In this document: positions 17,009 to 34,427 of the stretch, one piece after another
Layout: each line of letters starts with the position of its first letter
Position numbering within the stretch: position 1 is the stretch's first letter
Assembly (NCBI GenBank): GCA_018267955.1
Contig: JAFDXL010000004.1
Coordinates: 66,064-130,063, forward strand
DNA: 64,000 nt
Reading direction: 5' to 3'
From: Bacteroidota bacterium
GTDB taxonomy: Bacteria > Bacteroidota > Bacteroidia > Chitinophagales > Chitinophagaceae
Program-made: the position numbers and the translations under genes
The notes under the pieces: generated by a model
Database searches by the model: none
What the model saw: the letters and a program-made list of their open reading frames with translations, nothing else
What the model was told of the DNA's origin: nothing

Positions 17009-18604
17009 ATGAAAAAATTAATGCTATTCATGGCAGGCATTGCCATGTCCTTAGGAACCCATGCACAGTTTAGTTTGGATGCAGGCGGCTGCGGTACAGC
17101 TTACTGGCAACCCTGTTTAGGCACTACAGGTTATGCTTATAATTCTTCCTCTTTAACTGATGCAGTAATTTCTGATGTGCACGGCGCTCTAAATTCAACA
17201 TCACTTTATCATTACGAAGTAGGTGACTTTGATAACTCGGGTGATCGGGATATTTACCTGATTAAAAAGAACCGGTTAAATGGAGCAACAGTGAGTACAG
17301 TTACGTTTGACGCTAATACAGCAATTAATTCTAACCCAGCAACATATGATAATTGCAAGAAAATGACAGTAGATGAAAACAATCATAAAGCATATATCAC
17401 TGGTACGTGGGGACCTACATTCATACCCTTCCTTGCCTGTATAAACCTTAATACGAATACATTTGCCTGGGGAAAATCGTTAAATACCTACCAAGATATC
17501 AAAGATGTAGCAGTTGATGCCAGTGGAAACGTTTATGTATTAGTACGCGAGATACGCAGCTGCAATACTTGTCCTTTAGAATTTTCTATATTAAAATATA
17601 GCAGCGGCAGTACATTCCTTGGCAGCTGGAGTACTAGTTCTTTCGGTTCGTCAGATAGTTATTTCGGGAATGCAATGGAATATGACGGCAGTGGCAAAAT
17701 ATTTGTAGTCGGTCAAGGTTCTGGTGCAACCTGGGGTAGCAGTTTTCTTTTGGGCATTAATACCAGCAGTATGTCGTTTCATTATATTGCAAACCTTACC
17801 TCATACCCTTTTGACAAAGGAGGCTTTAATAAAATTGGAAGAAACCCTACGAATGGTCATATTGTAACAGCGGGCGAATATACTACCCCTTCTACAACTT
17901 CTACGACATGGCAAGAATGGGACGTAACTAGCAACCCTACTAAATATGGTGCTCTTAGTCCTACTGCTTTGCCACCTAACAAAGGTCTGAGTGGAATATC
18001 CTCAACTTCAATAGATATATTGACTGACCTTTTAGTAAACCCTAATGGCAAAGTAGATATTTTAATAGTTAACGGGGTTCTTAATGCAAGATACCTGACT
18101 TACATAAACCCTGCTTTAAACTCCGGTCTTGGTGATATTGACTATAGTACAGGGGGAGGAAATGCAATTCAATTTTCCTCTACCGACCCTCAACCTGTAT
18201 GGGCCAATAAAGATGAAGACGGAAGTATAATAGTTGGTGGGACTTATGGCACATCTCCAAGCTCAATAACCTTCACTGCCAAATTTCACGATGCAAGCCT
18301 TACGACCGGGACGGGAGCATGGCCGGGTTATGAAAATAAATCTACCGGTATCAATCATATCCATGCAGATGAGATAAGCATTGCTCCAAATCCTGCTTCA
18401 GATATACTTTCCATAGAAGGTATCAATGATAATGCTGATTATAGAATCAGTAATACTTTAGGGCAGATAGTTGCCAAAGGCAGTATAGGTAATTCTAAAA
18501 ATGCACAGATAGGCATATCGGGATTGAACCAGGGAACTTATTACCTGCAATTGTATAGTGCTGATAAATCTATTATCACCACCAAGCCATTTGTAAAGCA
18601 ATAA
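17009..18604 (+). CDS. Secreted protein with T9SS sorting domain, unknown function
   Basis: The 531-residue protein has a signal peptide (about 1-20, ending THAQ) and a central region of about 420 residues. That region has repeated strand-rich units ('KAYITGTWGP', 'GNVYVLVREIR', 'GKIFVVGQGSG', 'GSIIVGGTYG') spaced like blades of a beta-propeller. The C-terminal type A sorting domain begins 'ISIAPNPASDILSI' and ends TKPFVKQ. The propeller is inferred from blade-like spacing rather than a recognised family. It stands alone between the gene-poor region and a strong terminator and faces the cluster of five surface genes. Confidence 0.8.
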   Translation: MKKLMLFMAGIAMSLGTHAQFSLDAGGCGTAYWQPCLGTTGYAYNSSSLTDAVISDVHGALNSTSLYHYEVGDFDNSGDRDIYLIKKNRLNGATVSTVTFDANTAINSNPATYDNCKKMTVDENNHKAYITGTWGPTFIPFLACINLNTNTFAWGKSLNTYQDIKDVAVDASGNVYVLVREIRSCNTCPLEFSILKYSSGSTFLGSWSTSSFGSSDSYFGNAMEYDGSGKIFVVGQGSGATWGSSFLLGINTSSMSFHYIANLTSYPFDKGGFNKIGRNPTNGHIVTAGEYTTPSTTSTTWQEWDVTSNPTKYGALSPTALPPNKGLSGISSTSIDILTDLLVNPNGKVDILIVNGVLNARYLTYINPALNSGLGDIDYSTGGGNAIQFSSTDPQPVWANKDEDGSIIVGGTYGTSPSSITFTAKFHDASLTTGTGAWPGYENKSTGINHIHADEISIAPNPASDILSIEGINDNADYRISNTLGQIVAKGSIGNSKNAQIGISGLNQGTYYLQLYSADKSIITTKPFVKQ

Positions 18605-18627
18605 TCAATTCCTAATAAGTAATACTA

Positions 18628-18661
18628 AAGATGCCTGCTATATAGCAGGCATCTTGTTTTT
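18628..18661 (+). terminator. Terminator after the plus-strand surface gene
   Basis: A 28-base perfect inverted repeat (AAGATGCCTGCTAT and its complement) is followed by GTTTTT. It lies between convergent genes and may act both ways. Confidence 0.85.
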
Positions 18662-18687
18662 GATATGAAGCAGTAATTGAGATGAAA

Positions 18688-20154
18688 CTATTCTTTGCTG
18701 ATCTTGATGACCTGTGAGCGTTCGCCATCTGTATAATGCAGGAGGTAAAGCCCGGCGGGGACTTCTTTAAGATCAAGCTCTAGCTTATCGCCGGTCATGG
18801 TGACTGTTTTCAGCAGTTTACCGGAAATATCTGTTAGCTGTATGGTGGCGTCGCTGCGTTTGATGCCGTGCATTACAGATAAGGTAACGGTATTGTGTAC
18901 GGGGTTAGGGTATGCATTGATGCTGAATGCAGGCATTGCAGGTGTATTATCTACACTAAGGCAAGGCTGGGTAAGGAAAGAATCGACCGACCAATCGGAG
19001 GAGGGTGTAGGGTTGCACAATGCGCGGATGAAGAAATAATATTCCCTGCCACAATCGAGGCCATTGAGGTTTAAAGCAGTAACAGATGCGCGCGTGCCGC
19101 CGGTAGGCGCCGGTTCGCCTGCAATACCTACCGCATATTCATAAGCATATACAGAAGTTACCGGCTGCCATGTTGCCAAGGCAGTGGTGCTGGTGATGCC
19201 ATTGATATCTACAGGCGGCATATCGCAGCAAGGTGGTGTGGTGAAAGATACGGTAGTCCACGGACCATAGGTATAGGTAGCCTGGCTATGGCTATCTGTA
19301 TCGCAGATACTGCGTATGTGGAAATAATAGGTGGTATTGCATTTTATATGTTTGATATCGCTATTAGGCAGGTGCATGGATGTTGTGTTAGGATTCAGCA
19401 GGTAATTACCGGTACCGGGGTCATTGGGGTTTTGATCCACTATGTACTCCAGCAGGCGTTCGTTGCCGTTATTTATCCAGTTAACATCTGTACCTTTTGA
19501 TGTGGTATTAGAAAAAGTGACAGTTGGAATTTTGAGGCATGGATTGTGAATGATGACATCGTAATCTTCTGTTTCGCCACTTATAACAGGACCATTAGTG
19601 ATGCACGGATTAATGGGATCGCCGGGGGCATTACTGCTATTAGGTGTTTTAACCCTACCAGATAAACACCTGATACGCATACGTGTTAACCCATCTTTGG
19701 CAAAATGCGGTATCGTAAAAGTAAGGCTAGGAAATGGCCCGGGGGGAGCCTGGGCTTGTTGTGTCACCAACTCACCTTCAGGATAAAGTGAACTTAAATA
19801 ATTAGTGTTATCAAAACTATCGTCTCGATTCCAGTCTACCCAAAATGCAATACGATTGATATTACCATTTGCATTTGAAGGTACGACCGAAGTAATATTT
19901 ATGGTTACAGTAGCCCCTGCATTTACTTCAAGGGTATTACCGCTACCACTGTAGTATGCATAGTTGGTACCAGTATTTCCGCAGGTAGATGAGTTAGAGA
20001 TATTCTGTATCCCACCTGTTGTAACTACTTTGGTAATATTATAGCCATCTGAGCAGCTATTTGTGTACGTGGGGATACAGTTTTTGGAGAATTTTTGCGC
20101 AGATGCAGGCATTGCTGCCGCCAGCACCATACATAGTGGAATAAGCTTTTTCAT
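18688..20154 (-). CDS. GEVED-FN3-FN3 surface protein with T9SS sorting domain (copy 1)
   Basis: The 488-residue protein has a signal peptide (about 1-19, ending ASAQ). A GEVED domain spans roughly 45-205, with 'INRIAFWVDWNRDDSFD', 'GLTRMRIRCLS' and the closing GETEDYDVIIHNPC. Two fibronectin type III-like domains follow, with 'TYYFHIRSICDTDSHS' and 'REYYFFIRALCNPTPSSDW'. A type A sorting domain (AYPNPVHNTVTL to QVIKISKE) ends it. Paired cysteines (PPCCDMPP, QPCLS) border the FN3 domains. It is a close paralogue of the next gene and shares the rear-half layout with the three giant beta-helix proteins. Adhesion or matrix roles are possible, but none is shown. Confidence 0.87.
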   Translation of the reverse strand: MKKLIPLCMVLAAAMPASAQKFSKNCIPTYTNSCSDGYNITKVVTTGGIQNISNSSTCGNTGTNYAYYSGSGNTLEVNAGATVTINITSVVPSNANGNINRIAFWVDWNRDDSFDNTNYLSSLYPEGELVTQQAQAPPGPFPSLTFTIPHFAKDGLTRMRIRCLSGRVKTPNSSNAPGDPINPCITNGPVISGETEDYDVIIHNPCLKIPTVTFSNTTSKGTDVNWINNGNERLLEYIVDQNPNDPGTGNYLLNPNTTSMHLPNSDIKHIKCNTTYYFHIRSICDTDSHSQATYTYGPWTTVSFTTPPCCDMPPVDINGITSTTALATWQPVTSVYAYEYAVGIAGEPAPTGGTRASVTALNLNGLDCGREYYFFIRALCNPTPSSDWSVDSFLTQPCLSVDNTPAMPAFSINAYPNPVHNTVTLSVMHGIKRSDATIQLTDISGKLLKTVTMTGDKLELDLKEVPAGLYLLHYTDGERSQVIKISKE

Positions 20155-20282
20155 CAGGTAAAAGTTTTATGAGTAACCATACAAATACAAGACACGTATG
20201 CCCTGTAATGGAAAAGACGGGAATAGTAATAAATCGGAAAGTGAGCTGTATTAGTTTTAATCTGATTTTAAGGGAACATTAA

Positions 20283-20308
20283 AAAGCCCCGTCTTGAAAC
20301 GGGGCTTT
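20283..20308 (-). terminator. Terminator of GEVED surface gene copy 2
   Basis: A perfect 10-bp stem (AAAGCCCCGT/ACGGGGCTTT) lies 22 bases after the stop codon at 20331 and is followed by TTTT on the minus strand. Confidence 0.85.
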
Positions 20309-20330
20309 AAATATTATTGTTGAAGATGTA

Positions 20331-21761
20331 TTACTCTCTGCGCACTTTTATTACCTGCGTTCGCTGCTCATCGGAGTAGCGTATCATATATAAGCCACTT
20401 GGTACATCGTTCAGGTTCAGATCGAGCTTATCGCCGTCCATCACAGCCGTCTTCAGCACCTTGCCCGTGACATCCATCACTTCTATAGCACCTACCTCGC
20501 GCTTGATGCCGTGCATTACGCTGAGCGTTACCACGTTGCGGGTAGGGTTAGGATATGCATTCAGTTTGAACTCAGGCAATACCGGTGAATTATCTATGCT
20601 GGTACAAGGCTGTGTAAGGAATGAATCTATACCCCAGTCTGACGTAGGCGTAGGACTACATAAAGCCCTGAGGAAGAAATAATATTCGCGGGAGCAATCG
20701 AGGCCCGGTAATAATGTAGTAGTACCATTGTAACGCGTGCCACCCGTTGGCTCCGGAGAATCAGAGATGCTTACTGCGTACTCGTATTGAATAACCGAAG
20801 TAACAGGGCCCCATGAAGCTATAGCTGTATTAGAGGTGATATTATCCACTGTAATAGGCGGTACATCGCAGCAAGGTGGTGTCTGGAAAGAATCCAACCT
20901 CCATGGGCCATAAGACCATGTAGCCTGGCTATGACTTTCTGTATCACATACATCGCGGATGTGGAAATAATATTTGGTGTTACAATTGATACGTGTTGTA
21001 TTGGTATCCGGTACGTGTATAGATGTCTGCGTATTATTGAGCAGGAAATTACCGTTGCCCGGATCATTAGGGCTTTGGTCGATCATGTATTCTACCCATC
21101 TTTCATTGCCATTCACTGTCCAGGAAATGTCTGCTCCTTTTGAAGTAACATTGGTGATGTTGACAGAAGGAATTTTCTTGCAAGGATTATGAATAATAAT
21201 ATCGTAGTCTTCGGTTTCTCCATAAGCGGCACCAGACCAAGTTTGGCATGCATCAAATGTTCCTGTGGGATAATAACCAAAGAGTGGCAAAGCCGTTGGG
21301 TCTGTTGTTTTATAAAAAATACGAAACCTCAACCTTGTCACTCCGTCCTTAGCAAATGGATTTACAGTAATAGGTGTAGCAGTTGTGCCAACTAAATTGA
21401 CAACAAATTCACCCTTAGGCATCGTGATAGGATTATATGGATTGTTGTCAAAAATTTGATTCTGATCATAATCAATATACACTGCCGTACGTGCTAGATT
21501 TTGCCCTGCCTTCGGGTAAACGACTTGTACGGTAAAAGTAGACCCCGCGTTAACTTCTACTACCTTCTTAGTACCAGTATAATATGTGTAATTATTACAT
21601 CCTGTACCCAAGTTTGAAATATTCTGTATTGCACCACCAGTTGTGACATCGCTAATGTAAAGATTAGGATTACAGCCCGAGGGGTATGTAGGTATGCAAT
21701 ACTGAGCTTCCACATTATGGAAAGTAAAAAGCAAAATACACAACGCAAAAAGCTTTTTCAT
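20331..21761 (-). CDS. GEVED-FN3-FN3 surface protein with T9SS sorting domain (copy 2)
   Basis: The 476-residue form starts MKKLFALCILLF and has a signal peptide ending VEAQ. A longer frame begins at a TTG at 21788 and would spoil the signal peptide. The domain order equals that of the preceding paralogue: GEVED ('LARTAVYIDYDQNQIFDNN', GETEDYDIIIHNPC), two FN3-like domains ('KYYFHIRDVCDTESHS', 'REYYFFLRALCSPTPTSDW') and a type A sorting domain (AYPNPTRNVVTL to QVIKVRRE). The two proteins match well from the GETEDYD motif onward and diverge more within GEVED. Each gene has its own terminator, so they are separate units rather than an operon. Confidence 0.87.
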   Translation of the reverse strand: MKKLFALCILLFTFHNVEAQYCIPTYPSGCNPNLYISDVTTGGAIQNISNLGTGCNNYTYYTGTKKVVEVNAGSTFTVQVVYPKAGQNLARTAVYIDYDQNQIFDNNPYNPITMPKGEFVVNLVGTTATPITVNPFAKDGVTRLRFRIFYKTTDPTALPLFGYYPTGTFDACQTWSGAAYGETEDYDIIIHNPCKKIPSVNITNVTSKGADISWTVNGNERWVEYMIDQSPNDPGNGNFLLNNTQTSIHVPDTNTTRINCNTKYYFHIRDVCDTESHSQATWSYGPWRLDSFQTPPCCDVPPITVDNITSNTAIASWGPVTSVIQYEYAVSISDSPEPTGGTRYNGTTTLLPGLDCSREYYFFLRALCSPTPTSDWGIDSFLTQPCTSIDNSPVLPEFKLNAYPNPTRNVVTLSVMHGIKREVGAIEVMDVTGKVLKTAVMDGDKLDLNLNDVPSGLYMIRYSDEQRTQVIKVRRE

Positions 21762-21891
21762 TGAGTAAAATTTAATACGCATCAGCAATATTATTTTAAG
21801 CCGGAGTTTGAATTAAGTGTTATGTAGCAAGATACTAAAAAATATTAAAAATTTAAAAGCATTTTTTTGAGAAAATTTTTATTCATCAAGC

Positions 21892-21918
21892 AAAATGCCC
21901 CCTGAGCGGGGGCATTTT
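21892..21918 (-). terminator. Terminator of giant beta-helix gene A
   Basis: A perfect 11-bp stem (AAAATGCCCCC/GGGGGCATTTT) with a 5-base loop lies 26 bases after the stop codon at 21945. Confidence 0.87.
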
Positions 21919-21944
21919 ATAAATTATAAACTTTTAGTTATTAT

Positions 21945-24900
21945 TTACTGTTTGCTAATCTTCATTACATCTACATGGCTGCGGTCGCTGTATTTCAGTT
22001 GGTAAACACCTGCAGGTAAGCCATTCATGTTCACTTCTACCTGGCTGGCATTCACCACTATGCTGCGTACCTGCTTGCCCGTAACATCTGTAACGGTAAG
22101 TGTAGCTTCGCCATCTATTTTGCCGGACAGCTCTACATGCAATACATCTGTAACCGGATTTGGATAGGCACTCAGACCAATGCTGTTACCGCTGATGGTA
22201 TTGATTGCAGTAGGGAAAGTAGAGAACCCTAATACACCCCATTCAGACTCAGGATAGATGCTGTTACAATATGCTTTTACAAACACATAGTAATCTGATG
22301 CAGGTGCCAGTGGCAATTGCAAACTAGGAGTATTAACTACCGTACCAAATGCAGGTGCCGGCGTTGGTGCATGCTGTATCACATACTCGTACTTAGTAGC
22401 TGTCTGGATCGTATCCCAATACAAAATAGCACGGCTTTGTGTGAGCGTGATCAGCTTTGGCTCCGGTGTATGGCAAGTAATCAGTGTAGTGAAATCAACA
22501 GTAGTCCAGCCTGAAGTATCTTTTACACCACAAATACTGCGTACGTGCACATAATAGTGTGTGTTCTCGGTAAGTGTAGTAAGAGAAATTGTATTAGTAG
22601 TGGCGAAGCTGGAACCCACACCGGACGCAGGCGTAGCAGCGCTGTTGTCCACAATCACCTGGTATCCTATAGGAAGGAATACAGCATCCCAGTCAACATC
22701 TGCAGTAAAGGCAGTGATATTGCTCACTTTTACATGCTCGGGATTGATAACACAACGAATACCGATACGTGCATTTTCTACGATCGTGTATTTGCCCACA
22801 CTATCCAATGCTGCTGTAGGGTATGCTTTGTTGAGCACCGGATCTGTAGCAGCATTGCCATAGTTGTACCCTACCCAAGGAGAGCCATTGGATGAATTGG
22901 CGATCTTGGCATTAGCCTCTGTAGAGATGGTACCCAGCTGAGGATCTTTATAATACACTGTTGGTGTATGAGACAGTGCATACACACCATTGGTAAACAG
23001 ATCTAACCAGAGGTAGCTGCGGCCCACCAGTGATGGCATTGGCGCACCTGCCTGCTGGCCGCTGTACTGGCGCATTACCGCAGTAGATGGTACTGCAGGG
23101 CCCCATGCTATGCTGGCAGCAGTATCCTGGCCAAAGAGGAAGTATTGGGTAGTGCCGGCTGCAGGCGCTGCAGGTATTGCAGTACATGCAGGAGGAGTGC
23201 TGACAGGGCTTACTTCATAAGCACCCAGGTCAGGAACACCATCCTGGCGTGTTTTAGGACGCATTACACCATCGGCATCAAGCGTATCACCATCTATATG
23301 CATACCACGGCCGTTAACCGCCCATGAATTAGGATTGGAAGGATCAGGATGCACATTCTTATTAGCAGGATCGGCGAAGCCCGGATCAAAAATCAGCGAA
23401 TTGCGATCGCGGTTGCTGGCTTTTCTCCATGCCTGCAAGGAGGTAGTATTGACGCTAGGCTTAGAAGTGCCACGAAGCGAAACAGTACCGGGAGTATAAT
23501 ACAGGTTGTAATCGGACTGCCAATAAGTAGTATCATTCAAATAAATAGCCGGATTGGTACTTGTGGCATCGCTACGCGAGAAGACATTGTTATACAAATA
23601 GGAAACGCCGGGATAAGAACCGCTGCCACCTTGCTTGTAAATGAGGTAATTGGTGCTACCTGTACTGGCGCTGTGGAAGGTATTATTGATGTAATACATG
23701 TCGGAATTATTACCATAATACGATGGCTCATAGAACATGTACGTACTACCACTTGTTTTGGCCGTAAATACATTGCTGATGAATTTATCATTTCCAGGAG
23801 TATAACCGCCATATGCGTATATAGTACCGCCGGAAGTGCTGGTCATATCAAATATATTGCTTACCCAAGCAGCACCGGCATAGGAAGAAGACCCATAACC
23901 CTGGTAACCATAGATGCCGCCGGTAGTAGATGTAAAGGTGAGCTTGTTTTTATATGCCAGGCCACCATAACTATAATAAGCATAGTTATAAATATAGCCG
24001 CTCTTAACATTCGCTGTGATCGTGTTAAATGCGTTATAGCCTGCGAGGTAGTTTTGATAATTGTAGTATGAGCCGCCGTTTGTAGCATTATACGAAAACG
24101 TATTATACATCATCGTATCGGCAGCAGCATTACCGTAGTTGTAATCAAGCGGAGCATAATTGTACACATAGCCATAGCTGGTATTATCATTAAACGTAAA
24201 ATTGTTGTATTTGCATTTTACACTTTCAGAATAGTAGGCAGGGCCGTATACATAGCAGTAACCGCCGCCGGAACCAGTAAGATTACCTGTAAAATTGTTG
24301 CTATCTATAACTGCATTAAAGTTGCCGTACATATAAGTACCATACAAATAGTAACCACTGGAAGCTGTTATATTATTCTTCCTGATAAGGGCAGTATTGC
24401 CGGTACCATAGCCATTATAATAAACATAGAATGCGCCAAAATTATAGGCATTGGTACTGGGGGTATTAGTAACAATAGTGTTATTTTTTACTGCAAGGGT
24501 ACAATTGCTGCCTGTGTAGTTGTGATAAGCTATCTCAAAAGCATAATCGGAACCGGAACCAGTTGCCGATGCATTTACATTATTGTTTAGATATTCAGCA
24601 TATCCGTTTGCCAGGCCGTAGTTGTTCCAGTATCCGTAGATGCCGTAGTTGCTGTAACCGGCAGTTAGATTCAACGTGTTATTATCGCATTTGATGTTAT
24701 CGCAATACTGATAGATGTAAATGCCGTAGTTGGTACTACCTGTAGAAGTTTGCGTTAAGGTATTATTGGAGATATTTACCATTTTACAATAGTAGTAATA
24801 GTAAATACCATAGGTAGCGCTGCTTGAATAGAGCGTTATCGTATTATTGGAAGTATTTACCTCATTAGCAGTAGGCGTGCTGTAATTACCATATGTATTG

Positions 24901-25733
24901 TACACCCCGTAAACGCTACTGGTACCGGTAGTGCTGATGGTATTATTACTTACGGTAAAGCCGTTTTGCGGGTAATAAAGATAAAAACCATAGTGCGATC
25001 CAACTCCTGTAGCAGAACAAGTATTGTTCTTTATGGTAACATTGCCCAGGTATTGAGAGTAGATATAGGAATAATAGTTATTGCTGAAGGTATTGTAACT
25101 AAATACGTTATCGGACGACAAGGTAGCTCCTGAAGAAAGCCAGCAGATACCGTGTGAACCATAAGAGAACGTATTACCCATAGCAACAATATTGGTCATA
25201 GAAGAGGCGTTGGCGGCATATATCAATGCGCGCGCGTTGCTGGTAGAAGTAGTTGACTGGCCAATGAAGCTGCAACCCAGAAGGCTATCGTTGCTAGCAG
25301 AGCCTGTAAACTCTACCACCCTGCCATAGGAAGTACTCGTATTGGTAATGCTGATATTCCTAATAGTAAGATACTGTGTACCATTAAGCTGCAGCATATA
25401 ATTGGCAGACGAGCTGCCGGCATCGCTGATGCTTACCGTGCCTGCCCCGCTGGATGCCTGGATGACTACCCTATTAGAACTGCTTGCCCCTGAAAAGGCA
25501 GGTATCTGTACCTGCTGCCAGCCCGTACCCGAGTAAGTGCCGGGCAGGACATTAAAGACAATAGTACCTGAAAGCGTACCCACGTCCGCTATCGCGTCTG
25601 CAAGGGTAGTGTAAGAGCCCCCGGAACCAATAGTATACGTGCCGGTGGTGATCGCGGCATTTGCCTGCCCATACATACCGAGCAACAAGGCAGATGCGAA
25701 GCCTAGTTTTTTAAAAATGTTGAAGTGTTTCAT
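21945..25733 (-). CDS. Giant Tyr/Asn-rich beta-helix surface protein A (T9SS cargo)
   Basis: The 1,262-residue protein starts MKHFNIFKKLG and has a signal peptide ending QANAA. A right-handed parallel beta-helix spans roughly 30-780. Within it, units of about 26-36 residues open with NNT and carry an aromatic YGxY stretch about ten residues later (for example YGIYYYYYC, YGIYIYQYC, YGIYGYW). The helix closes with 'DGDTLDADGVMRPKTR' and PDLGAYE, like choice-of-anchor Q proteins. An unassigned segment, two FN3-like domains ('YYVHVRSICG', 'YYVFVKAYCNSIYPESEWG') and a type A sorting domain (AYPNPVTDVLHV to DVMKISKQ) follow. No polysaccharide lyase catalytic residues were recognised. The rear 1.46 kb is nearly identical to gene C. 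Confidence 0.88.
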   Translation of the reverse strand: MKHFNIFKKLGFASALLLGMYGQANAAITTGTYTIGSGGSYTTLADAIADVGTLSGTIVFNVLPGTYSGTGWQQVQIPAFSGASSSNRVVIQASSGAGTVSISDAGSSSANYMLQLNGTQYLTIRNISITNTSTSYGRVVEFTGSASNDSLLGCSFIGQSTTSTSNARALIYAANASSMTNIVAMGNTFSYGSHGICWLSSGATLSSDNVFSYNTFSNNYYSYIYSQYLGNVTIKNNTCSATGVGSHYGFYLYYPQNGFTVSNNTISTTGTSSVYGVYNTYGNYSTPTANEVNTSNNTITLYSSSATYGIYYYYYCKMVNISNNTLTQTSTGSTNYGIYIYQYCDNIKCDNNTLNLTAGYSNYGIYGYWNNYGLANGYAEYLNNNVNASATGSGSDYAFEIAYHNYTGSNCTLAVKNNTIVTNTPSTNAYNFGAFYVYYNGYGTGNTALIRKNNITASSGYYLYGTYMYGNFNAVIDSNNFTGNLTGSGGGYCYVYGPAYYSESVKCKYNNFTFNDNTSYGYVYNYAPLDYNYGNAAADTMMYNTFSYNATNGGSYYNYQNYLAGYNAFNTITANVKSGYIYNYAYYSYGGLAYKNKLTFTSTTGGIYGYQGYGSSSYAGAAWVSNIFDMTSTSGGTIYAYGGYTPGNDKFISNVFTAKTSGSTYMFYEPSYYGNNSDMYYINNTFHSASTGSTNYLIYKQGGSGSYPGVSYLYNNVFSRSDATSTNPAIYLNDTTYWQSDYNLYYTPGTVSLRGTSKPSVNTTSLQAWRKASNRDRNSLIFDPGFADPANKNVHPDPSNPNSWAVNGRGMHIDGDTLDADGVMRPKTRQDGVPDLGAYEVSPVSTPPACTAIPAAPAAGTTQYFLFGQDTAASIAWGPAVPSTAVMRQYSGQQAGAPMPSLVGRSYLWLDLFTNGVYALSHTPTVYYKDPQLGTISTEANAKIANSSNGSPWVGYNYGNAATDPVLNKAYPTAALDSVGKYTIVENARIGIRCVINPEHVKVSNITAFTADVDWDAVFLPIGYQVIVDNSAATPASGVGSSFATTNTISLTTLTENTHYYVHVRSICGVKDTSGWTTVDFTTLITCHTPEPKLITLTQSRAILYWDTIQTATKYEYVIQHAPTPAPAFGTVVNTPSLQLPLAPASDYYVFVKAYCNSIYPESEWGVLGFSTFPTAINTISGNSIGLSAYPNPVTDVLHVELSGKIDGEATLTVTDVTGKQVRSIVVNASQVEVNMNGLPAGVYQLKYSDRSHVDVMKISKQ
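21951..23415 (-). repeat. Near-identical 1.46-kb tract, copy in gene A
   Basis: The 3' part of gene A (choice-of-anchor, FN3 and sorting-domain coding DNA) matches 30156-31620 in gene C almost base for base, including silent positions. A short diverged patch is present near 22571-22655. Comparison was by eye. Confidence 0.85.
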
Positions 25734-26032
25734 CTTATTATAGCACAATTAGAAATTCGAAAAAAAGCCGCCGTTGGCTTTATTGATTCTGAATTTAAAA
25801 CGATTTCATAGAAATAAAAATGACCATACATCAATTTTAATCTCCATCCATTAATCTGTTTTTAACCGTCTATTAATAAGATTTTAATTTTAAAGCAATT
25901 TTATGGTAACAATAGCCTCATCCAGATTGAAAAATTACAATATGTATATATTAGTTATTTAACAAATGTTTCTAATTTACTTCAATTGAAATATCTATAG
26001 AAACGTTAAAAATTTTAATCTCTCCTTAATGC
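25734..26032 (-). other. AT-rich leader/promoter region of gene A
   Basis: No coding sequence was found. The DNA is strongly AT-rich. A small hairpin (AAAGCC/GGCTTT) lies at about 25764-25781, close to the start of gene A. The stretch at 25840-25900, rich in TTTTTAA and TTAATA, resembles part of the region upstream of gene C (34190-34260). Confidence 0.45.
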
Positions 26033-26068
26033 AAAAGCGAGTGCCTCCTGGTGGAGGCACTCGCTTTT
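26033..26068 (-). terminator. Terminator of giant beta-helix gene B
   Basis: A perfect 16-bp stem (AAAAGCGAGTGCCTCC and its complement) with a TGGT loop lies 21 bases after the stop codon at 26089. It is the second-longest stem in this window. Confidence 0.9.
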
Positions 26069-26088
26069 TAGAAAAAATCAGTATAAGA

Positions 26089-29000
26089 TTATTGTTTTGT
26101 AATCTTCATAACATCAACATGACTGCGATCGCTATACTTAAGCTGATAAATACCAGAAGCAAGGCGACTCATATCAATTTCTGTTTTGTTATTGTTAACG
26201 GACACTGAGCTAATCTGTTTACCGGTAACATCTGTTATTGTAATATTAGCCTCACCATCGATCTTACCTGCCAGTTCTACAGTAACCATGTTTGTAACAG
26301 GATTAGGATAAGCAGACAGGCCTATGCTGGCGCCGCTGATGGTGTTGATAGCAGTTGGGAAAGTAGAGAAGCCCACCATACCCCACTCAGATTGCGGGTA
26401 GATGCTATTACAATATGCACGAACAAACACGTAGTAATCTTTGCCCGGAGATAACGGGAATTGAAGAGACGGTGTATAGATCGGCGTTCCTACAGTTGGC
26501 ACAGGCGTTGGAGCATTTTGTATTACATACTCGTACTTGGTTGCTGTCTGGATCGTATCCCAATACACAACCACATTATTTTGTGTCAGCTTAAGAATCT
26601 TAACATCAGGAGTGTGACATGTGATCAATGTTTTGAAGTGAACAGTAGTCCATCCGGATGTATCTTTTGGTCCGCAGATAGTGCGCACGTGCACATAATA
26701 ATCTGTATTCTCCGTAAGGCTATTGAGATGCAAGCTGTTATTTGACGAGAAAGTAGCCGCAGCACCTGAAGAAGGTGTACCAGGTATGTTATCTACAAGC
26801 ACCTGATATCCTGTAGGCAGGAATACTGCATCCCAATCAATATCAGCATCAAATGCTGTTATGTTGCTCACCTTAACATTGGTAGGGTTGATAATACAAC
26901 GTATGCCAATGCGTGCATTTTCTACGATCGTATATTTTCCTACACTATCCAGATCGCTGGAAGGATAAGACCAATTTAAAAGCGAATCTACTTTAGCGTT
27001 GGTATAGTTGTAACCTACCCATGGAGAACCATTAGACGAGTTGGCAATTTTTGCATTGGTTTCGTTAGAAACAGTACCCAGCTGCGGATCTTTGTAATAG
27101 ATAACCGGTTTATGCTGTAACTCATAAACACCGTTGGTATTAAGATCTAACCATAAGAAGCTGCGACCTACGCTTGGTGGCATTGGTGCGCCTGCCTGCT
27201 CGCCGGTATATTGCCTCATTACAGTTGTAGAAGGAGCTACAGGTCCCCAGGTAATAGCTGCAGCAGTATCCTGCCCGAAAAGGAAGTATTGTGTAGTACC
27301 TGCTACAGCAGTTGCCGGTATTGCATCGCATGCAGGTGGCGTGCTGGTAGGTGTTACTTCATATGCACCCAGATCAGGAACACCGTCCTGGCGAGTTTTA
27401 GGACGCATGATACCATCAGCATCCAGTGTATCGCCATCCAGGTGCATACCACGGCCGTTTACAGCCCAAGCCCTTGGATCTGAAGCCTGCGGATGAAGAT
27501 TTTTGTTAGCAGCATCTGTATAGCCCGGATCATATATCAGTGAATTCATGTCCCGGTTGGTATTATTCCTCCAATCCTGAAGCGTAGAAGCGGTGCCGGT
27601 TGACGAAAACACGAAATCCATATTACCTGGAGCATAGTAAAGATTATAGTCTGCTTTCCAGTCAGAAGTGTCAATGATATATACCAGAGGATCTGTATTA
27701 TTTACATCGCTCTTAGAGAAGATATTGTTGTACATGTACATATTACCAGAGGTGCTTGAACCTTGTTTATTAACAAGGTAGTTGGTATAGCCTGTACTGT
27801 TACTGTGGAAGGTGTTATTAAAGAAATACACGTCAGAGTTGGCGTTGCCATAATCTGTGAACATGTAAGTGGCACCGTTAATGCTGTTGGCAACAAAAAT
27901 ATTGCTGATAAACTTGTCGTTACCGGGGTAAGCCCATGAAATACCGCCATAACCATAAATAGTACCATAGTTACTATTCATGTCAAACGTGTTGCCGATC
28001 CATGTTCCTATAGATGAAGATCCTCCATCAGTTGAAACTCCATTCACATCACCGTATTCTGAATAAAGATTGAATTTATTACGGTATGCCATACCATCTA
28101 CAGGGTAACTGAACTGTTGATAGATACCGCCGTAATAAGTATTTACATTAAAAGTATTCTCTGCATTGTATCCACCCCAATCATAAACCTGTGCATCATA
28201 CTCTCCGCCATCGGGACAATTGACATTATAGGTATTATTGATTACAGAATCGCCTGAGGCTGAAGACCATCCATTGTAAAAGGGAGTGTTGTTGTATATG
28301 CTACCCCAAGTAGTGTGTTCCAGGTTAAACGTATTATCCCGGAACATCAGGTTGGTACTGTTGTTAGGACCGTTAATATACATGGTACCATAATCGGTTA
28401 TCGTACCTGTGAAAGTATTATCCTTTACCAGCGCATTATTAACGCTGTAAAAATTAGGTAAATACATATAGTACGGTGATGTCGCCTCTACCGTATTATT
28501 CATAATGGAATCGGTATTACCGGTTCCATCGCCAATGTCACTCAGATAGAACGAACCATAGTTCCAGGCATAATAGTTAGTACAATAAGAGGTAATATTA
28601 TTGTTATTGCAAGTAAACGTAGAGTTGGTCGCGCCGGCATTTATGGATACCAACTGAAAGGCGTATTCAAAATAATCGCCATCGCTTTGAGCGGTTATCG
28701 TGTTGTTATTAACTTCAGCATACGCACCGCTCAAGCTATTATTGGCCGAATAAACATTAATGCCCATATTGCCGGAACTACTTGTCAGATCAAGCGTATT
28801 ACTATTACACTTGAAATTGTCGCAACCATAATTGAAGTCAATACCATAGTTCGTATTATAGGCATTCTGAGTAAGCGTATTATGCTCTACCGTGGCAGTC
28901 TTACAATTATCCAGATAAATACCTTGCAGCTGATCTGTTGTAGTGAGATTTAATGTATTATGTGAAATAATAAGTTCAGCAGATGCAGAACTATTATTAC

Positions 29001-29835
29001 CATTGATCATATAGATACCATAAAGAGCGCTATAGTTATCTGTGGTAAGGCTGTTATACTGGATGCTGCAGCCACCATCCGGATCCTCCATATAGATATC
29101 ATAATGGGTATCAGATAAGCCGGATATAGAACAAGTATTATGTTCTATAGCGGCATTGCTCATTTGCGAAGTATAGATATAAGAATAGTAGTTGTCCTGG
29201 AACGTGTTATTACTGAAAACATCGTCTGCAGTTGTAGCAGAAGTGGCCCACCAATAGATACCAACGGAACCATTTTGAATGGTATTGCCGGTGATAACAA
29301 CGTTACTGGTAGCACTTGCGTCGTCAGAAGCGATAACGGCAAGATCGGTGCTTTTATCACTGATAGAAGGCCCGTTCAATGTACAGCCGATTACGCTGTC
29401 ATACGCTGCAGCCCCTGCAAAGTTAATTATCCTGCCGTAAGTCTGATCGGTATTCTCGATGGTAATATTTTTAATACTAACATACGATGCGCCATCGAGC
29501 TTGATAATGTAATTATCAGAAGATGTACCCGCACCGGATATTGTAACGGCACTACTTGACGGCTGAATAATAAGCCTGTTGCTGCTGCTGGAGCCTGAAA
29601 GAGCCGGGATGGTTAACTGCCAGCCCGTACCCGAATAAGTGCCCGGTAATATATTCAGTTCAATATTACCGCTCATAGTACCAATATCTGCTATCGCATC
29701 ACTTAAAGTAGCGTAGGTACCTCCGGAACCTACTGTATAGCTACCAACTGTAATGGCTGCATTTGCCTGTAATAAACCTGATAGAACCAAGGCTGAACTG
29801 ATGCCGAGCTTCCTGATGATGTTGAGGTATTTCAT
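26089..29835 (-). CDS. Giant Asn-rich beta-helix surface protein B (T9SS cargo)
   Basis: The 1,248-residue protein has a signal peptide ending QANAA, nearly the same start as gene A (AITVGSYTVGSGGTYATLSD). The beta-helix region shows the same NNT-opening units, but it is less tyrosine-rich and more acidic than A and C. The closing segment is 'DGDTLDADGIMRPKTR' with PDLGAYEV. Two FN3-like domains and a type A sorting domain (AYPNPVTNMVTV to DVMKITKQ) follow. In the rear half it agrees with A and C at protein level but differs at many residues and at most silent sites, so it was not included in the A-C homogenisation. No catalytic motif was recognised. Confidence 0.88.
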   Translation of the reverse strand: MKYLNIIRKLGISSALVLSGLLQANAAITVGSYTVGSGGTYATLSDAIADIGTMSGNIELNILPGTYSGTGWQLTIPALSGSSSSNRLIIQPSSSAVTISGAGTSSDNYIIKLDGASYVSIKNITIENTDQTYGRIINFAGAAAYDSVIGCTLNGPSISDKSTDLAVIASDDASATSNVVITGNTIQNGSVGIYWWATSATTADDVFSNNTFQDNYYSYIYTSQMSNAAIEHNTCSISGLSDTHYDIYMEDPDGGCSIQYNSLTTDNYSALYGIYMINGNNSSASAELIISHNTLNLTTTDQLQGIYLDNCKTATVEHNTLTQNAYNTNYGIDFNYGCDNFKCNSNTLDLTSSSGNMGINVYSANNSLSGAYAEVNNNTITAQSDGDYFEYAFQLVSINAGATNSTFTCNNNNITSYCTNYYAWNYGSFYLSDIGDGTGNTDSIMNNTVEATSPYYMYLPNFYSVNNALVKDNTFTGTITDYGTMYINGPNNSTNLMFRDNTFNLEHTTWGSIYNNTPFYNGWSSASGDSVINNTYNVNCPDGGEYDAQVYDWGGYNAENTFNVNTYYGGIYQQFSYPVDGMAYRNKFNLYSEYGDVNGVSTDGGSSSIGTWIGNTFDMNSNYGTIYGYGGISWAYPGNDKFISNIFVANSINGATYMFTDYGNANSDVYFFNNTFHSNSTGYTNYLVNKQGSSTSGNMYMYNNIFSKSDVNNTDPLVYIIDTSDWKADYNLYYAPGNMDFVFSSTGTASTLQDWRNNTNRDMNSLIYDPGYTDAANKNLHPQASDPRAWAVNGRGMHLDGDTLDADGIMRPKTRQDGVPDLGAYEVTPTSTPPACDAIPATAVAGTTQYFLFGQDTAAAITWGPVAPSTTVMRQYTGEQAGAPMPPSVGRSFLWLDLNTNGVYELQHKPVIYYKDPQLGTVSNETNAKIANSSNGSPWVGYNYTNAKVDSLLNWSYPSSDLDSVGKYTIVENARIGIRCIINPTNVKVSNITAFDADIDWDAVFLPTGYQVLVDNIPGTPSSGAAATFSSNNSLHLNSLTENTDYYVHVRTICGPKDTSGWTTVHFKTLITCHTPDVKILKLTQNNVVVYWDTIQTATKYEYVIQNAPTPVPTVGTPIYTPSLQFPLSPGKDYYVFVRAYCNSIYPQSEWGMVGFSTFPTAINTISGASIGLSAYPNPVTNMVTVELAGKIDGEANITITDVTGKQISSVSVNNNKTEIDMSRLASGIYQLKYSDRSHVDVMKITKQ

Positions 29836-30104
29836 ATGTATAGCGCATTAATAATTTCTGATGAAAATTGGGCAATTCGGCTTCAAGTTATATCGTTTTT
29901 TAGCAATAAAAAAATATTTATATATAGTAACTTTTCATTTTAATTAGTTTTTAAACTATTAGTTACAAATACCTATATAACTAAACTAACTATTACATAA
30001 CTAGCTAAAGCATACTATAAAACGAAAGATTAAAGCCAACAAGCATAATATTAACTATCTATCACTAGTGACCTAATTCATTTATATCCAGACCATAACA
30101 ATAA
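29836..30104 (-). other. AT-rich leader/promoter region of gene B
   Basis: The 314-base gap holds no gene. It is very AT-rich, with runs such as AAAAAAATATTTATATATAG. The terminator of gene C lies at its far end. No clear TAnnTTTG box was picked out. Confidence 0.45.
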
Positions 30105-30124
30105 AGGCCACCGTTGGGTGGCCT
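30105..30124 (-). terminator. Terminator of giant beta-helix gene C
   Basis: An 8-bp stem (AGGCCACC/GGTGGCCT) with a GTTG loop lies 25 bases after the stop codon at 30150. TTTATTG follows on the minus strand. Confidence 0.75.
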
Positions 30125-30149
30125 CTATTAAATTATGATTATAATCTTT

Positions 30150-33100
30150 TTACTGTTTGCTGACTTTCATCACATCTACGTGGCTGCGGTCGCTGTATTT
30201 CAGTTGGTATACACCTGCAGGTAAGCCATTCATGTTCACTTCTACCTGGTTGGCATTCACCACTATGCTGCGTACCTGCTTGCCCGTAACATCTGTAACC
30301 GTAAGGGTAGCTTCGCCATCTATTTTGCCGGACAGCTCTACATGCAATACATCTGTTACCGGATTTGGATAGGCACTCAGACCTATGCTGTTACCGCTGA
30401 TGGTATTGATAGCAGTTGGGAAAGTAGAGAACCCTAATACACCCCATTCAGACTCAGGATAGATGCTGTTACAATATGCTTTTACAAACACATAGTAATC
30501 TGATGCAGGTGCCAGTGGCAATTGCAGGCTGGGAGTATTAATTACTGTACCAAATGCAGGTACCGGTGTTGGTGCATGCTGTATCACATACTCGTACTTA
30601 GTAGCTGTCTGGATCGTATCCCAATACAAAATAGCACGGCTTTGTGTGAGCGTGATCAGCTTTGGCTCCGGTGTATGGCAAGTGATCAGTGTAGTGAAAT
30701 CAACAGTAGTCCAGCCGGAAGTATCTTTTACACCACAAATACTGCGTACGTGCACATAATAGTGTGTGTTCTCTGTAAGTGCCGTCAAGGATATAGTATT
30801 AGTTGTTGCAAACAATGCACCTGCACCTGAAGCTGGCGTACCCGGCTTTGTATCTACGATCACCTGGTATCCTATAGGAAGGAATACAGCATCCCAGTCA
30901 ACATCTGCAGTAAAGGCAGTGATATTGCTCACTTTTACATGCTCGGGATTGATAACACAACGGATACCGATACGTGCATTTTCTACGATCGTGTATTTAC
31001 CAACACTATCCAATGCTGCTGTAGGGTATGCTTTGTTAAGCACAGGATCTGTAGCAGCATTGCCATAGTTGTAACCCATCCATGGAGAACCATTGGATGA
31101 ATTGGCGATCTTGGCATTGGCCTCTGTAGAGATGGTACCTAATTGAGGATCTTTATAATACACTGTTGGTGTATGAGACAGTGCATACACACCATTGGTA
31201 AACAGATCTAACCAGAGGTAGCTGCGGCCCACCAATGATGGCATTGGCGCACCGGCCTGCTGGCCGCTGTACTGGCGCATTACCGCAGTAGATGGTACTG
31301 CAGGGCCCCATGCTATGCTGGCAGCAGTATCCTGACCAAAGAGGAAGTATTGGGTAGTGCCTGCCGCAGGCGCTGCAGGTATTGCAGTACATGCAGGAGG
31401 AGTGCTGACAGGGCTTACTTCATAAGCACCCAGGTCAGGAACACCATCCTGGCGTGTTTTAGGACGCATTACACCATCGGCATCAAGCGTATCGCCATCA
31501 ATATGCATACCACGGCCATTAACCGCCCATGAATTAGGATTGGAAGGATCGGGGTGTACATCTTTGTTTACTGCGTCTTTATAGCCCGGATCAAAAATCA
31601 GCGAATTGCGATCGCGGTTGGTAGCATTTCTCCACGCCTGCAGAGAAGTGGTTGTAATATTAGGCTTAGAAGTACCGCGAAGCGTAACAGTACCGGGAGT
31701 ATAATACAAGTTGTAATCGGCGCGCCAATAAGTAGTATCATTCAGATAAATAGCAGGACTAGTGCTTGTGCCATCGTTGCGCGAGAAGATATTGTTGTAT
31801 AAATAAGCTACACCATTATAGCTACCACTACCTGCTTGTTTGTAGATAAGATAGTTGGTGCTACCGGTGCTGGCACTATGAAACGTATTATTCAGATAGT
31901 ACATATCGGCATAGTTGCCGTAGCTAGGTTCGTAGTACATATAGGTACTACCGTTAGTCTTGGCCTTAAAGACATTGCCGATAAGCTTTTCGTTACCAGG
32001 TAAATAACCACCACAACCATAGATAGTGCCGGTATTGCTGGTCATATCTATTGTATTGCCTACCCATGTAGCACCTGGATAAGATGGATAACCATAAGCA
32101 TAATAGCCATAGATAGTACCACTGTTTGTAGTAAAGTTTAGCTTATTATGATATAGCAAACCGCCATAGTTGTATTGCGGGTAGTTATAAATAGAGCCGG
32201 ATGTAGTAGTAACATTAATAGTATTATTACCGGAAAAACCGTTAGCATACTGCGCATAGTTATAATAACTACCGCTAGTGAGATTAATATTAAAAGTGTT
32301 ATTTATAGCAGTATCCTGGCCACCACTACCGGAGTTGGCTACAAATGGTGTGTAGTTGTAACAGCCGCCAGATCCGTTATGGGTATAATTGAGCGTGTTA
32401 TTTTTTACCATAGCACCTTCGCAATAATAATCGGCCGGGCCATAGATATAACCATAACCGGAAGTACCACTTGGGCAAGTTGCATTAACCACATTGTCTG
32501 ATATCACTGCATGATATTGATACAGCATGTAAGATATATAGTGATAATACTTGCTTGAATAGTTCATCACATTACCCTTAATCTGGGCTGAGTTACCGGA
32601 ACCATACATACCTGTGTAGTAGAAATATGGACCGTAGTTATATGCAGATGTGCTTAGCTCTGTACAGTTGAATGTGTTGTTATTACATTTGAAAGTACAG
32701 TTAGTACCGTTATAATTATTAAAATAGAAGTAATCGTAACAATAGTAGTTAGAGCTATATGAGATGGTGTTATTAGTTACTTCCAGGTACGCATCACTAG
32801 CGCCATAATTATTGTAGTAGAAGTAAACAGCATAAATGTAACCCGAACTAGTGTTGCTACAGCTGACCACGTTATTATTGAACTTAATATTGACATTGAA
32901 CCAATACACATATACCCCATAAGTATAGCCATTGGTAGCTGTAGTAGTTATGTTATTATTTTCAGCTTTGATATTGTAGTTGTAATAATAAAAATCAATG
33001 CCGTACACATAGCTGGTACTATTTAATGTGATAGTATTGTTTGAGGCCACCAGATCATTTGCTGATGTAGTACTGCTATTTCCGTATGTAGAATATATAC

Positions 33101-33929
33101 CATATAGATAACCGCTTGTATTGCTGGTAGTGATCGTGTTATTTGTTATTGTAAAACCATTTTGCGGATAATACATGTAAATACCATAATGATAGCCGCT
33201 GATGCTGGAGGCGCTACAGGTATTGAATTGTATGGTAGCATTGCCCATATACTGCGTGTATATGTAGGCATAGTAGTTACCGGAGAAAGTATTATTACTG
33301 ATAACATCATCAGAAGCCAGTGTACTGGTGCTGCTTGCATTCCAGTACACACCATAAGAGCCATACTGGATGGTGTTGCCTTTAATAACATTGCTATTCA
33401 TACTGCCGCCAGATGTAGCGCTGATAACAGCACGGTTATTGCTTGACGAAGAGCCCGAAACACCGGTAAGCGTACAACCTAAAACACTATCATAACTGGC
33501 GCCGCCGGTTAAATCTAAAACACGGCCATATGTGGTGCCGGTATTGACGATAGTAAGATTTTTTATTGAAACGTATTGTGAGCCATTGAGCTGCAATACA
33601 TAGTTGGCAGAAGAAGTACCGGCATTGCTGATGGTAACCGTACCAGCGCCATTCGCCGCCTGGATAGTAACCCTGTTAGAACTGCTGGAACCGGCGAAAT
33701 TGGGTATCTGCACTTGCCAATCGCTACCGGAATAGCTGCCGGGCTGAATGTTTAATACTATTGAACCCGAAAGGGAGCCAATGTCTGCAATGGCGGCAGC
33801 CAGGGTAGGATACGTGCCGGTGGCACCTATTGTATAGGTACCTGATGAAATGGCAGCCTGCGACCGTTGGAAACCAAGCAGAAACAAAGCCATCAGCAGA
33901 AAGCTTTTAAAGGTAGATGTCTGTTTCAT
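30150..33929 (-). CDS. Giant Tyr/Asn-rich beta-helix surface protein C (T9SS cargo)
   Basis: The 1,259-residue protein has a signal peptide ending RSQAA and then 'ISSGTYTIGATGTYPTLAAA', the same opening as A and B. The beta-helix spans roughly 30-775, with NNT-opening units and aromatic stretches (YGIDFYYYNY, YGVYVYWF, YAVYFYYNNYG). Tyr and Asn are strikingly frequent. The closing segment is PDLGAYEV, then two FN3-like domains and a type A sorting domain (AYPNPVTDVLHV to DVMKVSKQ). From about residue 770 to the end it is almost identical to A, apart from one patch ('VDTKPGTPASGAGALF' where A has 'VDNSAATPASGVGSSF'). The front half differs clearly from A. Confidence 0.88.
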   Translation of the reverse strand: MKQTSTFKSFLLMALFLLGFQRSQAAISSGTYTIGATGTYPTLAAAIADIGSLSGSIVLNIQPGSYSGSDWQVQIPNFAGSSSSNRVTIQAANGAGTVTISNAGTSSANYVLQLNGSQYVSIKNLTIVNTGTTYGRVLDLTGGASYDSVLGCTLTGVSGSSSSNNRAVISATSGGSMNSNVIKGNTIQYGSYGVYWNASSTSTLASDDVISNNTFSGNYYAYIYTQYMGNATIQFNTCSASSISGYHYGIYMYYPQNGFTITNNTITTSNTSGYLYGIYSTYGNSSTTSANDLVASNNTITLNSTSYVYGIDFYYYNYNIKAENNNITTTATNGYTYGVYVYWFNVNIKFNNNVVSCSNTSSGYIYAVYFYYNNYGASDAYLEVTNNTISYSSNYYCYDYFYFNNYNGTNCTFKCNNNTFNCTELSTSAYNYGPYFYYTGMYGSGNSAQIKGNVMNYSSKYYHYISYMLYQYHAVISDNVVNATCPSGTSGYGYIYGPADYYCEGAMVKNNTLNYTHNGSGGCYNYTPFVANSGSGGQDTAINNTFNINLTSGSYYNYAQYANGFSGNNTINVTTTSGSIYNYPQYNYGGLLYHNKLNFTTNSGTIYGYYAYGYPSYPGATWVGNTIDMTSNTGTIYGCGGYLPGNEKLIGNVFKAKTNGSTYMYYEPSYGNYADMYYLNNTFHSASTGSTNYLIYKQAGSGSYNGVAYLYNNIFSRNDGTSTSPAIYLNDTTYWRADYNLYYTPGTVTLRGTSKPNITTTSLQAWRNATNRDRNSLIFDPGYKDAVNKDVHPDPSNPNSWAVNGRGMHIDGDTLDADGVMRPKTRQDGVPDLGAYEVSPVSTPPACTAIPAAPAAGTTQYFLFGQDTAASIAWGPAVPSTAVMRQYSGQQAGAPMPSLVGRSYLWLDLFTNGVYALSHTPTVYYKDPQLGTISTEANAKIANSSNGSPWMGYNYGNAATDPVLNKAYPTAALDSVGKYTIVENARIGIRCVINPEHVKVSNITAFTADVDWDAVFLPIGYQVIVDTKPGTPASGAGALFATTNTISLTALTENTHYYVHVRSICGVKDTSGWTTVDFTTLITCHTPEPKLITLTQSRAILYWDTIQTATKYEYVIQHAPTPVPAFGTVINTPSLQLPLAPASDYYVFVKAYCNSIYPESEWGVLGFSTFPTAINTISGNSIGLSAYPNPVTDVLHVELSGKIDGEATLTVTDVTGKQVRSIVVNANQVEVNMNGLPAGVYQLKYSDRSHVDVMKVSKQ
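30156..31620 (-). repeat. Near-identical 1.46-kb tract, copy in gene C
   Basis: This is the partner of 21951-23415 in direct orientation, about 8.2 kb away with gene B between them. The diverged patch lies near 30776-30860. Homologous recombination between the copies could delete or exchange the intervening DNA. Confidence 0.85.
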
Positions 33930-34376
33930 ATTAAAATACTAGTTTTTACTTTCTCATAAAATTTTTCAGAATAGCATGGTAGCACAGTCATGCATTCTGT
34001 GTTTCGGGTAACGAGCGATTAATAGGTACTGAGTAGTAACAACCGGCGCAGAGTCAAAAAAAGATGTAGGGTGTGAAGGTCTGTTTGGTTTGTTTTGTTT
34101 GACTACTAACTATAAGTTGTTTTTTAACAGTTTTTTATTTGTTTGTTAGTTGCAAGATATTTATGTGTTATCAAATTAAAATACGATTTAGTGGTTTTAA
34201 TTTGTTTTTAATCGTTTTATAATCATCTATTAATCTCGCTATTAAAACCCTTTAATAAGCGTAAATATATACCTGTAATTCGCTATACAATAGAACATAC
34301 GTCATAGCGTATTGATGATTATTATCACTACGAGTTGCAGCAAGAACATTGCAAGCAAAAAAAAATGAAAAAGGAA
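33930..34376 (-). other. AT-rich region upstream of gene C
   Basis: There is no gene in about 450 bases. It contains a T/G-rich block with repeated TTTG (about 34078-34115) and T-runs with TTAATC-like motifs (34190-34255) resembling the leader of gene A. A regulatory role is possible but not shown. Confidence 0.45.
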
Positions 34377-34401
34377 AAGGGCCACATAAATTGTGGCCCT
34401 T
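34377..34401 (-). terminator. Terminator of the aldolase gene
   Basis: A perfect 10-bp stem (AAGGGCCACA/TGTGGCCCTT) with a 5-base loop lies 27 bases after the stop codon at 34428. It is followed by TTCC and TTTTTC on the minus strand. Confidence 0.85.
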
Positions 34402-34427
34402 CCAAAAATAAAAATATAGAAAAGATA

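Follow-up and report, generated by a model that had tools for sequence, protein, structure and literature searches.

Evidence for exchange of the rear segment between two of three tandem type IX secretion cargo genes in a member of the Chitinophagaceae

Three tandem genes with a sorting tail

We analysed a stretch of 64,000 nucleotides (nt) from a Bacteroidota genome assigned to the Chitinophagaceae (GCA_018267955.1, contig JAFDXL010000004.1), called the window below, with a focus on three large tandem genes, A, B and C, all on the minus strand. Their coordinates and strand had been given correctly in an earlier note on this DNA. Gene A (21945..25733) encodes 1262 amino acids (aa) and is similar in sequence to B and C. 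The similarity runs the full length of gene B (26089..29835, 1248 aa), which stands outside the exchange between A and C described here, and of gene C (30150..33929, 1259 aa), the putative recipient of the rear of A.

The product of gene A starts with a signal-like N terminus (the signal peptides of A, B and C were judged by eye), followed by a likely beta-helix at about aa 27-766 with a cap to about aa 840, a sandwich-like region, two fn3-like domains and a type A sorting tail of the type IX secretion system (T9SS). The sorting-tail family PF18962 scored above its cut-off of 27 bits in A (40.1), B (50.8) and C (41.2). TIGR04183 was above cut-off in B and C, with no match for A among those listed at E 0.001, and the fn3 family PF00041 passed its cut-off in B only. 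For the beta-helix family PF13229 the score was 29.5 bits in A, which is over the cut-off of 25.9, and 23.7 bits in C, which is below it; B gave no match. The AlphaFold model of A (aa 27-1190) had a mean predicted local distance difference test score (pLDDT) of 73.8, with regular short strands up to about model residue 737, where the pLDDT was mostly 70-97, and past this point a short helix, a middle section of poor model quality and a pair of sandwich domains. Most of the 50 PDB matches in the Foldseek list for this model were fn3 proteins, and the viral list held two proteins named right-handed beta helix with low TM-scores (TMq 0.15 and 0.24). The sequence search against solved structures gave four matches, to fn3 proteins and in the tail region only. 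Based on the PF13229 match in A, the strand pattern and the sequence similarity among the three proteins, and without a strong fold match, the fronts of A, B and C are likely to be beta-helices.

The genome of the window also carries a SprA_N match of 547 bits, corresponding to a T9SS component, and 146 of its 150 scored PF18962 matches were over the cut-off. Judged by the sorting tail and the presence of SprA, the three products are predicted to be T9SS type A cargo, presumably displayed on the cell surface. A Bacteroidota-type promoter pattern was matched five times (3.09 expected) and never upstream of A, B or C. Sigma-70-like sites (48 against 41.3 expected) and terminator-like sites (14 against 8.9) had no bearing on the question of exchange.

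The shared rear tract of genes A and C

The earlier note had reported that A and C are nearly identical over about 1.46 kilobases (kb) in their rear half. A 21945-23345 aligned with C 30150-31550 over 1398 nt with 75 differences, and a diverged island of 85 nt accounts for 31 of them. Outside the island 44 differences in 1313 nt were left, corresponding to 96.6% identity, as compared to about 62% in the clearly different fronts. The near-identity was thus real, but it is broken by the island and had been extended too far at 23415, as the 16 differences clustered at 23346-23377 place the clean edge at about 23345. The shared tract is found on the minus strand at 21976..23345 in A, the putative donor, and at 30181..31550 in C, the putative recipient, and extends from about aa 794, near the end of the beta-helix, to just before the stop codon. 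Instead of a rear half, the shared part covers the last 37% or so of the gene (A aa 794-1262). The codon alignment of A and C gave the same picture, with identities of 0.56-0.64 over the first 640 aa, 0.76 in the transition and 0.95 from aa 795 to the end. The island (minus strand, 22569..22653 in A and 30774..30858 in C) lies inside the first fn3-like domain and is probably old C sequence that was left unconverted; over the 36 codons around it the A-C identity was 0.713. Uneven spacing of the A-C differences was a weak sign of several events (p 0.04 and 0.13).

Short reads resolve repeats of 1.4 kb poorly, and a repeat collapse or chimeric join in the assembly of the window's genome could be suspected. 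However, the differences between the tracts are scattered, the longest identical A-C stretch in the tract is 128 nt, genes A, B and C are interior to contig C5 of that genome, and the same kind of pattern was seen in another species (below). Collapse, which the earlier note had raised itself, does not fit 75 scattered differences and was rejected, and an assembly artefact of either type is very improbable.

The silent sites were analysed at fourfold degenerate positions. A and C differed at 35 of 246 sites in the rear and at 113 of 180 in the front (Fisher p = 1.3e-25), so that the synonymous divergence along the two genes is uneven. With the island left out, 23 of 223 sites in the tract differed. 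The silent sites, described before as nearly identical, thus showed a lowered divergence without being identical. The other two pairs served as controls and had no such contrast, with 92/174 differing sites in the rear and 84/139 in the front for A-B (p 0.21), and 91/177 and 78/134 for B-C (p 0.25). B differs from both A and C at silent sites, as stated in the earlier note; we counted about half of the fourfold sites in the rear as different, and its rear identity was 0.72 to each of them. In our own GENECONV-like permutation of the silent sites (2000 shuffles), the best A-C segment with mismatches allowed (aa 799-1252) was matched by none of the shuffles. The longest exact A-C run was a weaker signal and was reached in 18 of 2000.

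The locus was also compared in five of 14 other genomes of the genus, picked for full-length or near-full-length matches among those listed, and the sampling comprises six species with one genome each. Segments in the cross-species comparisons were chosen after viewing sliding windows, and their p-values are descriptive. Near the same 352-aa aldolase gene, the window has three full-length members, G005 four, G008 two, and G010, G011 and G012 one each; in G005, G008, G011 and G012 the members are separated from the aldolase gene by one or two other genes. Copies 3 and 4 of G005 were identical over codons 698-1119 (1266 nt), with fronts at 0.693 identity and unrelated 3' flanks. As the coverage of this contig is 3.77, the exact identity should be taken with care. 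The other five copy pairs of G005 had no fourfold contrast between rear and front. Both strong tracts, in A-C and in G005 3-4, run from close to the helix end to a point shortly before the stop codon, where the homology ends.

A rear that is merely more constrained, with no exchange at all, would agree with the amino-acid identity, which in each of the 10 pairs compared within arrays (three in the window, six in G005 and one in G008) was higher in the rear than over the helix at aa 140-640. The fourfold divergence of front and rear was, however, equal for A-B, B-C and five of the six G005 pairs, and unequal for A-C and G005 3-4. Since the fourfold sites of A-C contrast between rear and front while those of A-B and B-C do not, the likeness of the A and C rears does not come from constraint. 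With these pairs and the five of G005 as controls, the fourfold counts contradict constraint alone, to which we give next to no weight.

Gene X of the sister species and the history of the exchange

The nearest genome compared, G010, is collinear with the window, with about 0.82-0.96 nt identity for genes outside the T9SS group, and has one gene, X, where the window has A-B-C. In the front (aa 27-480) C and X differed at 64 of 188 fourfold sites (0.34), in comparison to a span of 0.20-0.40 in five flanking non-T9SS genes, and the nt identity was 0.892 for C-X as compared to 0.577 for A-C. The front tree joined C and X with 100% support and rejected A+C in the approximately unbiased (AU) test (0.0004). 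On these sequence comparisons, X is orthologous to C in its front. In the rear tree, on the contrary, C+X was rejected (AU 0.0006; 0.004 without the island) and A+C was the best grouping, with a support of 71 (96 without the island). The tract without the island differed at 23/223 fourfold sites (0.103) for A-C, 64/218 (0.294) for A-X and 64/215 (0.298) for C-X. Because the rears of A and C are closer to each other than either is to X, the exchange is younger than the split of the two species, and we estimate its fourfold depth at roughly one third of that of the split, so that the exchange is recent in this sense. The exchange between A and C proposed in the earlier note was thus supported by uneven synonymous divergence, the permutation result and conflicting front and rear trees.

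The flanks of X are chimeric. Its 5' flank is identical to that of C (33930..34427, minus strand) at 456 of 494 positions, and its 3' flank to that of A (21789..21944, minus strand) at 152 of 156. The stretch that forms the 3' flank of C and the 5' flank of B (29836..30149, minus strand) had no meaningful alignment to the 3' flank of X, and neither flank of A resembles those of C. The 3' flank of B aligned at 108 of 140 positions with 76 gap positions, against X and A alike, which may be noise or weak relatedness in AT-rich DNA. When G010 was searched with window positions 23700-29835 (the front of A together with B), five matches were found; three had 66-70% identity and the other two, both short, 83% and 89%, and all five appear paralog-like. 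Gene X, with the upstream flank and front of C but the 3' flank of A, is as expected of a crossover between C and A that deletes B and the front of A, and looks like the product of such a deletion between the tracts, for which the earlier note had suggested searching related strains.

The explanation we favour, with a probability of roughly 0.8 as a whole, is that the rear of A was copied over that of C after the split and that a C/A crossover caused a deletion in the sister species. Genes A, B and C would be an old tandem set for T9SS-exported, probably beta-helical proteins, with fronts and rears that had already diverged throughout. After the split from the nearest species compared, homologous recombination, possibly of the RecA type, would have copied most of the rear of A over that of C, including the helix end, the sandwich region, the fn3 domains and most of the sorting tail. 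C would have retained its own helix, the 85-nt island, the last few codons and its 3' flank, and the copied stretch would halt where the likeness of A and C ends, on one side close to where the helix finishes and on the other at the stop codon. A crossover of C with A within the same rear part would, in the sister species, have removed B and the front of A and produced X, the front of C joined to the end of A. The rears would then act as shared homology, while the exposed parts are exchanged or replaced. The same tract edges would follow if conversion merely stops where homology runs out; a purpose of keeping the anchor uniform while the helix varies, and any benefit of such variation, may at most be presumed.

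The direction from A to C is the weakest step. Of the 31 A/C differences in the island, X agrees with A in 20, with C in 3 and with neither gene in 8 (identity 0.861 for A-X and 0.704 for C-X), and at the five differing sites 21957-21975 X matches A at 4. These counts suggest that A was the donor.

The near-identity of A and C could also have been inherited, if both genes arose in a recent duplication and a foreign allele later took the place of one front. Replacement of a front seemingly happens at this locus, as G011 and G012 were 0.609 identical in nt over the helix at aa 240-540 (L036:8145-9047 and L035:8318-9220) as compared to 0.946 outside (fourfold 37/63 vs 54/477, p 3e-16), which looks like a swapped helix. 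Such a duplication, however, must also replace the upstream region, the helix and the 3' flank, since the flanks of A and C are dissimilar. Moreover, B lies between A and C, and the island and last codons of C differ from A. We find this course of events improbable. The chimeric flanks of X would fit a gain as well as a deletion, with the single gene of the sister species being ancestral and the window's lineage having acquired B, the front of A and a second rear via incoming DNA. Copy numbers at the locus of 1, 1, 1, 2, 3 and 4 across the six genomes are in line with this. On the other hand, any two of the fronts of A, B and C have diverged much further than those of C and X, and therefore the lines of all three are older than the split. 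A gain also requires an outside source, of which none was seen, and we regard it as rather unlikely.

Several observations weigh against the copying from A to C followed by deletion in the sister species. A rear tree with A+X was not rejected at the 5% level (AU 0.34 with the island and 0.072 without). The direction is drawn from one island, five sites near the stop codon and the flank. Outside the island, X agrees with A in 25 of the 44 A/C differences, with C in 15 and with neither gene in 4. The middle of X (aa 505-655) was only 0.733 identical to C as compared to 0.889 outside (fourfold 28/51 vs 169/509), so that there was at least one further replacement and the history holds more than one event. 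Donors for the G011 helix and for this segment of X were sought in 15 genomes of the genus and none was found for either, the best non-self protein identities being 60% and 77%. G010 is a metagenome-assembled genome, in which a repeat-induced mis-join could mimic a deletion. The strong signal was present in one of the three copy pairs of the window and in one of the six of G005, and the G008 pair was weak and patchy (fourfold 53/225 vs 80/237, p 0.018). Finally, a B-C silent-site segment (B aa 261-595, 30 of 62 codons mismatched) was reached by 0 of 2000 shuffles and a short A-B segment (A aa 665-696) by 17 of 2000. We did not adopt these two segments as exchange, as the Tyr/Asn-rich helix with its twofold codons may favour chance matches.

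Neighbouring genes and known systems

The window contains 11 genes with PF18962, and four of them had a steep internal drop in identity to G010: C and three adjacent genes at 17009-21788. The T9SS-tailed gene at 17009..18604 (plus strand) was strongly diverged at aa 25-440 (fourfold 82/125 vs 6/37 outside), and the T9SS-tailed GEVED gene at 20331..21788 (minus strand) at aa 30-200 (27/38 vs 37/139). A second GEVED gene at 18688..20154 (minus strand) had a similar, weaker pattern (30/53 vs 52/150, p 0.006). The fronts of these three genes are diverged from the sister also at silent sites, and their rears are near the background divergence. As the fourfold differences rise with the drop in all four genes, replacement by diverged alleles is a likelier cause than amino-acid selection alone. 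Two of the 11 genes were nearly flat, 1105-4338 (the last three bins down to 0.78-0.80) and 56888-58264. In the G010 stretches compared, no convincing ortholog was found for A, B, 42558-44270, 47196-48116 (reciprocal match of only 0.447) and 48178-49647; 42558-44270 and 48178-49647 were without any reciprocal match there, though the neighbourhood is otherwise collinear.

A distant fourth family member, D, is located on contig C7 of the window's genome (L037:2033-5611), and in comparison to its G010 ortholog has a diverged segment at aa 590-720 (fourfold 22/33 vs 154/460, p 0.0002). In G011, a T9SS-tailed neighbour (C63:15691-16491) is listed with one in-frame TAA stop, and this copy looks interrupted.

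Tentatively, and with less than even confidence, the region of 17.0-34 kb may be a diversification hotspot. The fn3 and sorting-tail rears, in some genes together with conserved 5' ends, would serve as homology arms, helices and GEVED fronts would be swapped between paralogs and strains, and conversion would keep the arms alike enough to recombine, forming a module-exchange system for T9SS cargo. If true, this would be a simple rule for renewing exposed parts while the export and anchoring parts stay intact.

In the openly available literature searched for gene conversion or concerted evolution in T9SS or Bacteroidetes genes, we found no title or abstract on this locus. In antigenic variation of the Neisseria pilE/pilS type, an exported protein changes by gene conversion among related loci. 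Unlike in that system, each of A, B and C has a complete reading frame, and the conserved part, not the exposed one, appears to be copied. No silent cassettes were noticed among 27 sequence matches, with no dedicated search made otherwise. The gingipains and HagA of Porphyromonas gingivalis are reported to be T9SS-exported surface proteins that owe their diversity to allelic exchange and to the rearrangement of domains (PMC5266723). They resemble the present case as T9SS-exported proteins of Bacteroidota with exchange, but those cases concern adhesin modules that follow a protease or form part of HagA, whereas here a 1.4-kb rear tract is common to two of three tandem genes.

The closest likeness is to babA/babB and homA/homB of Helicobacter pylori. 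These paralogous outer-membrane protein genes are reported to have a 3' segment with greater likeness inside one strain than across strains, and a 5' segment that follows orthology; for segment 3 of homB-homA in a set of 24, the synonymous divergence (Ks) was 0.051 within and 0.202 between strains (PMC2795765, PMC3960876). Our counts have the same shape, with the rears of A and C closer within the genome than to X, the ortholog of C in the front. The proteins, however, are unrelated to those of H. pylori and are putative T9SS cargo, and the H. pylori case comprises many strains of one species, as compared to six species with one genome each here. One segment is closer between paralogs (A-C), another is orthologous (C-X), and the pattern recurs, strongly in G005 3-4 and weakly in G008. 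Together, the silent-site controls, the relative date and an apparent recombination product indicate 3'-segment concerted evolution for T9SS cargo genes in a Flavipsychrobacter-like lineage of the Chitinophagales, in a pattern that resembles the one known from the H. pylori genes.

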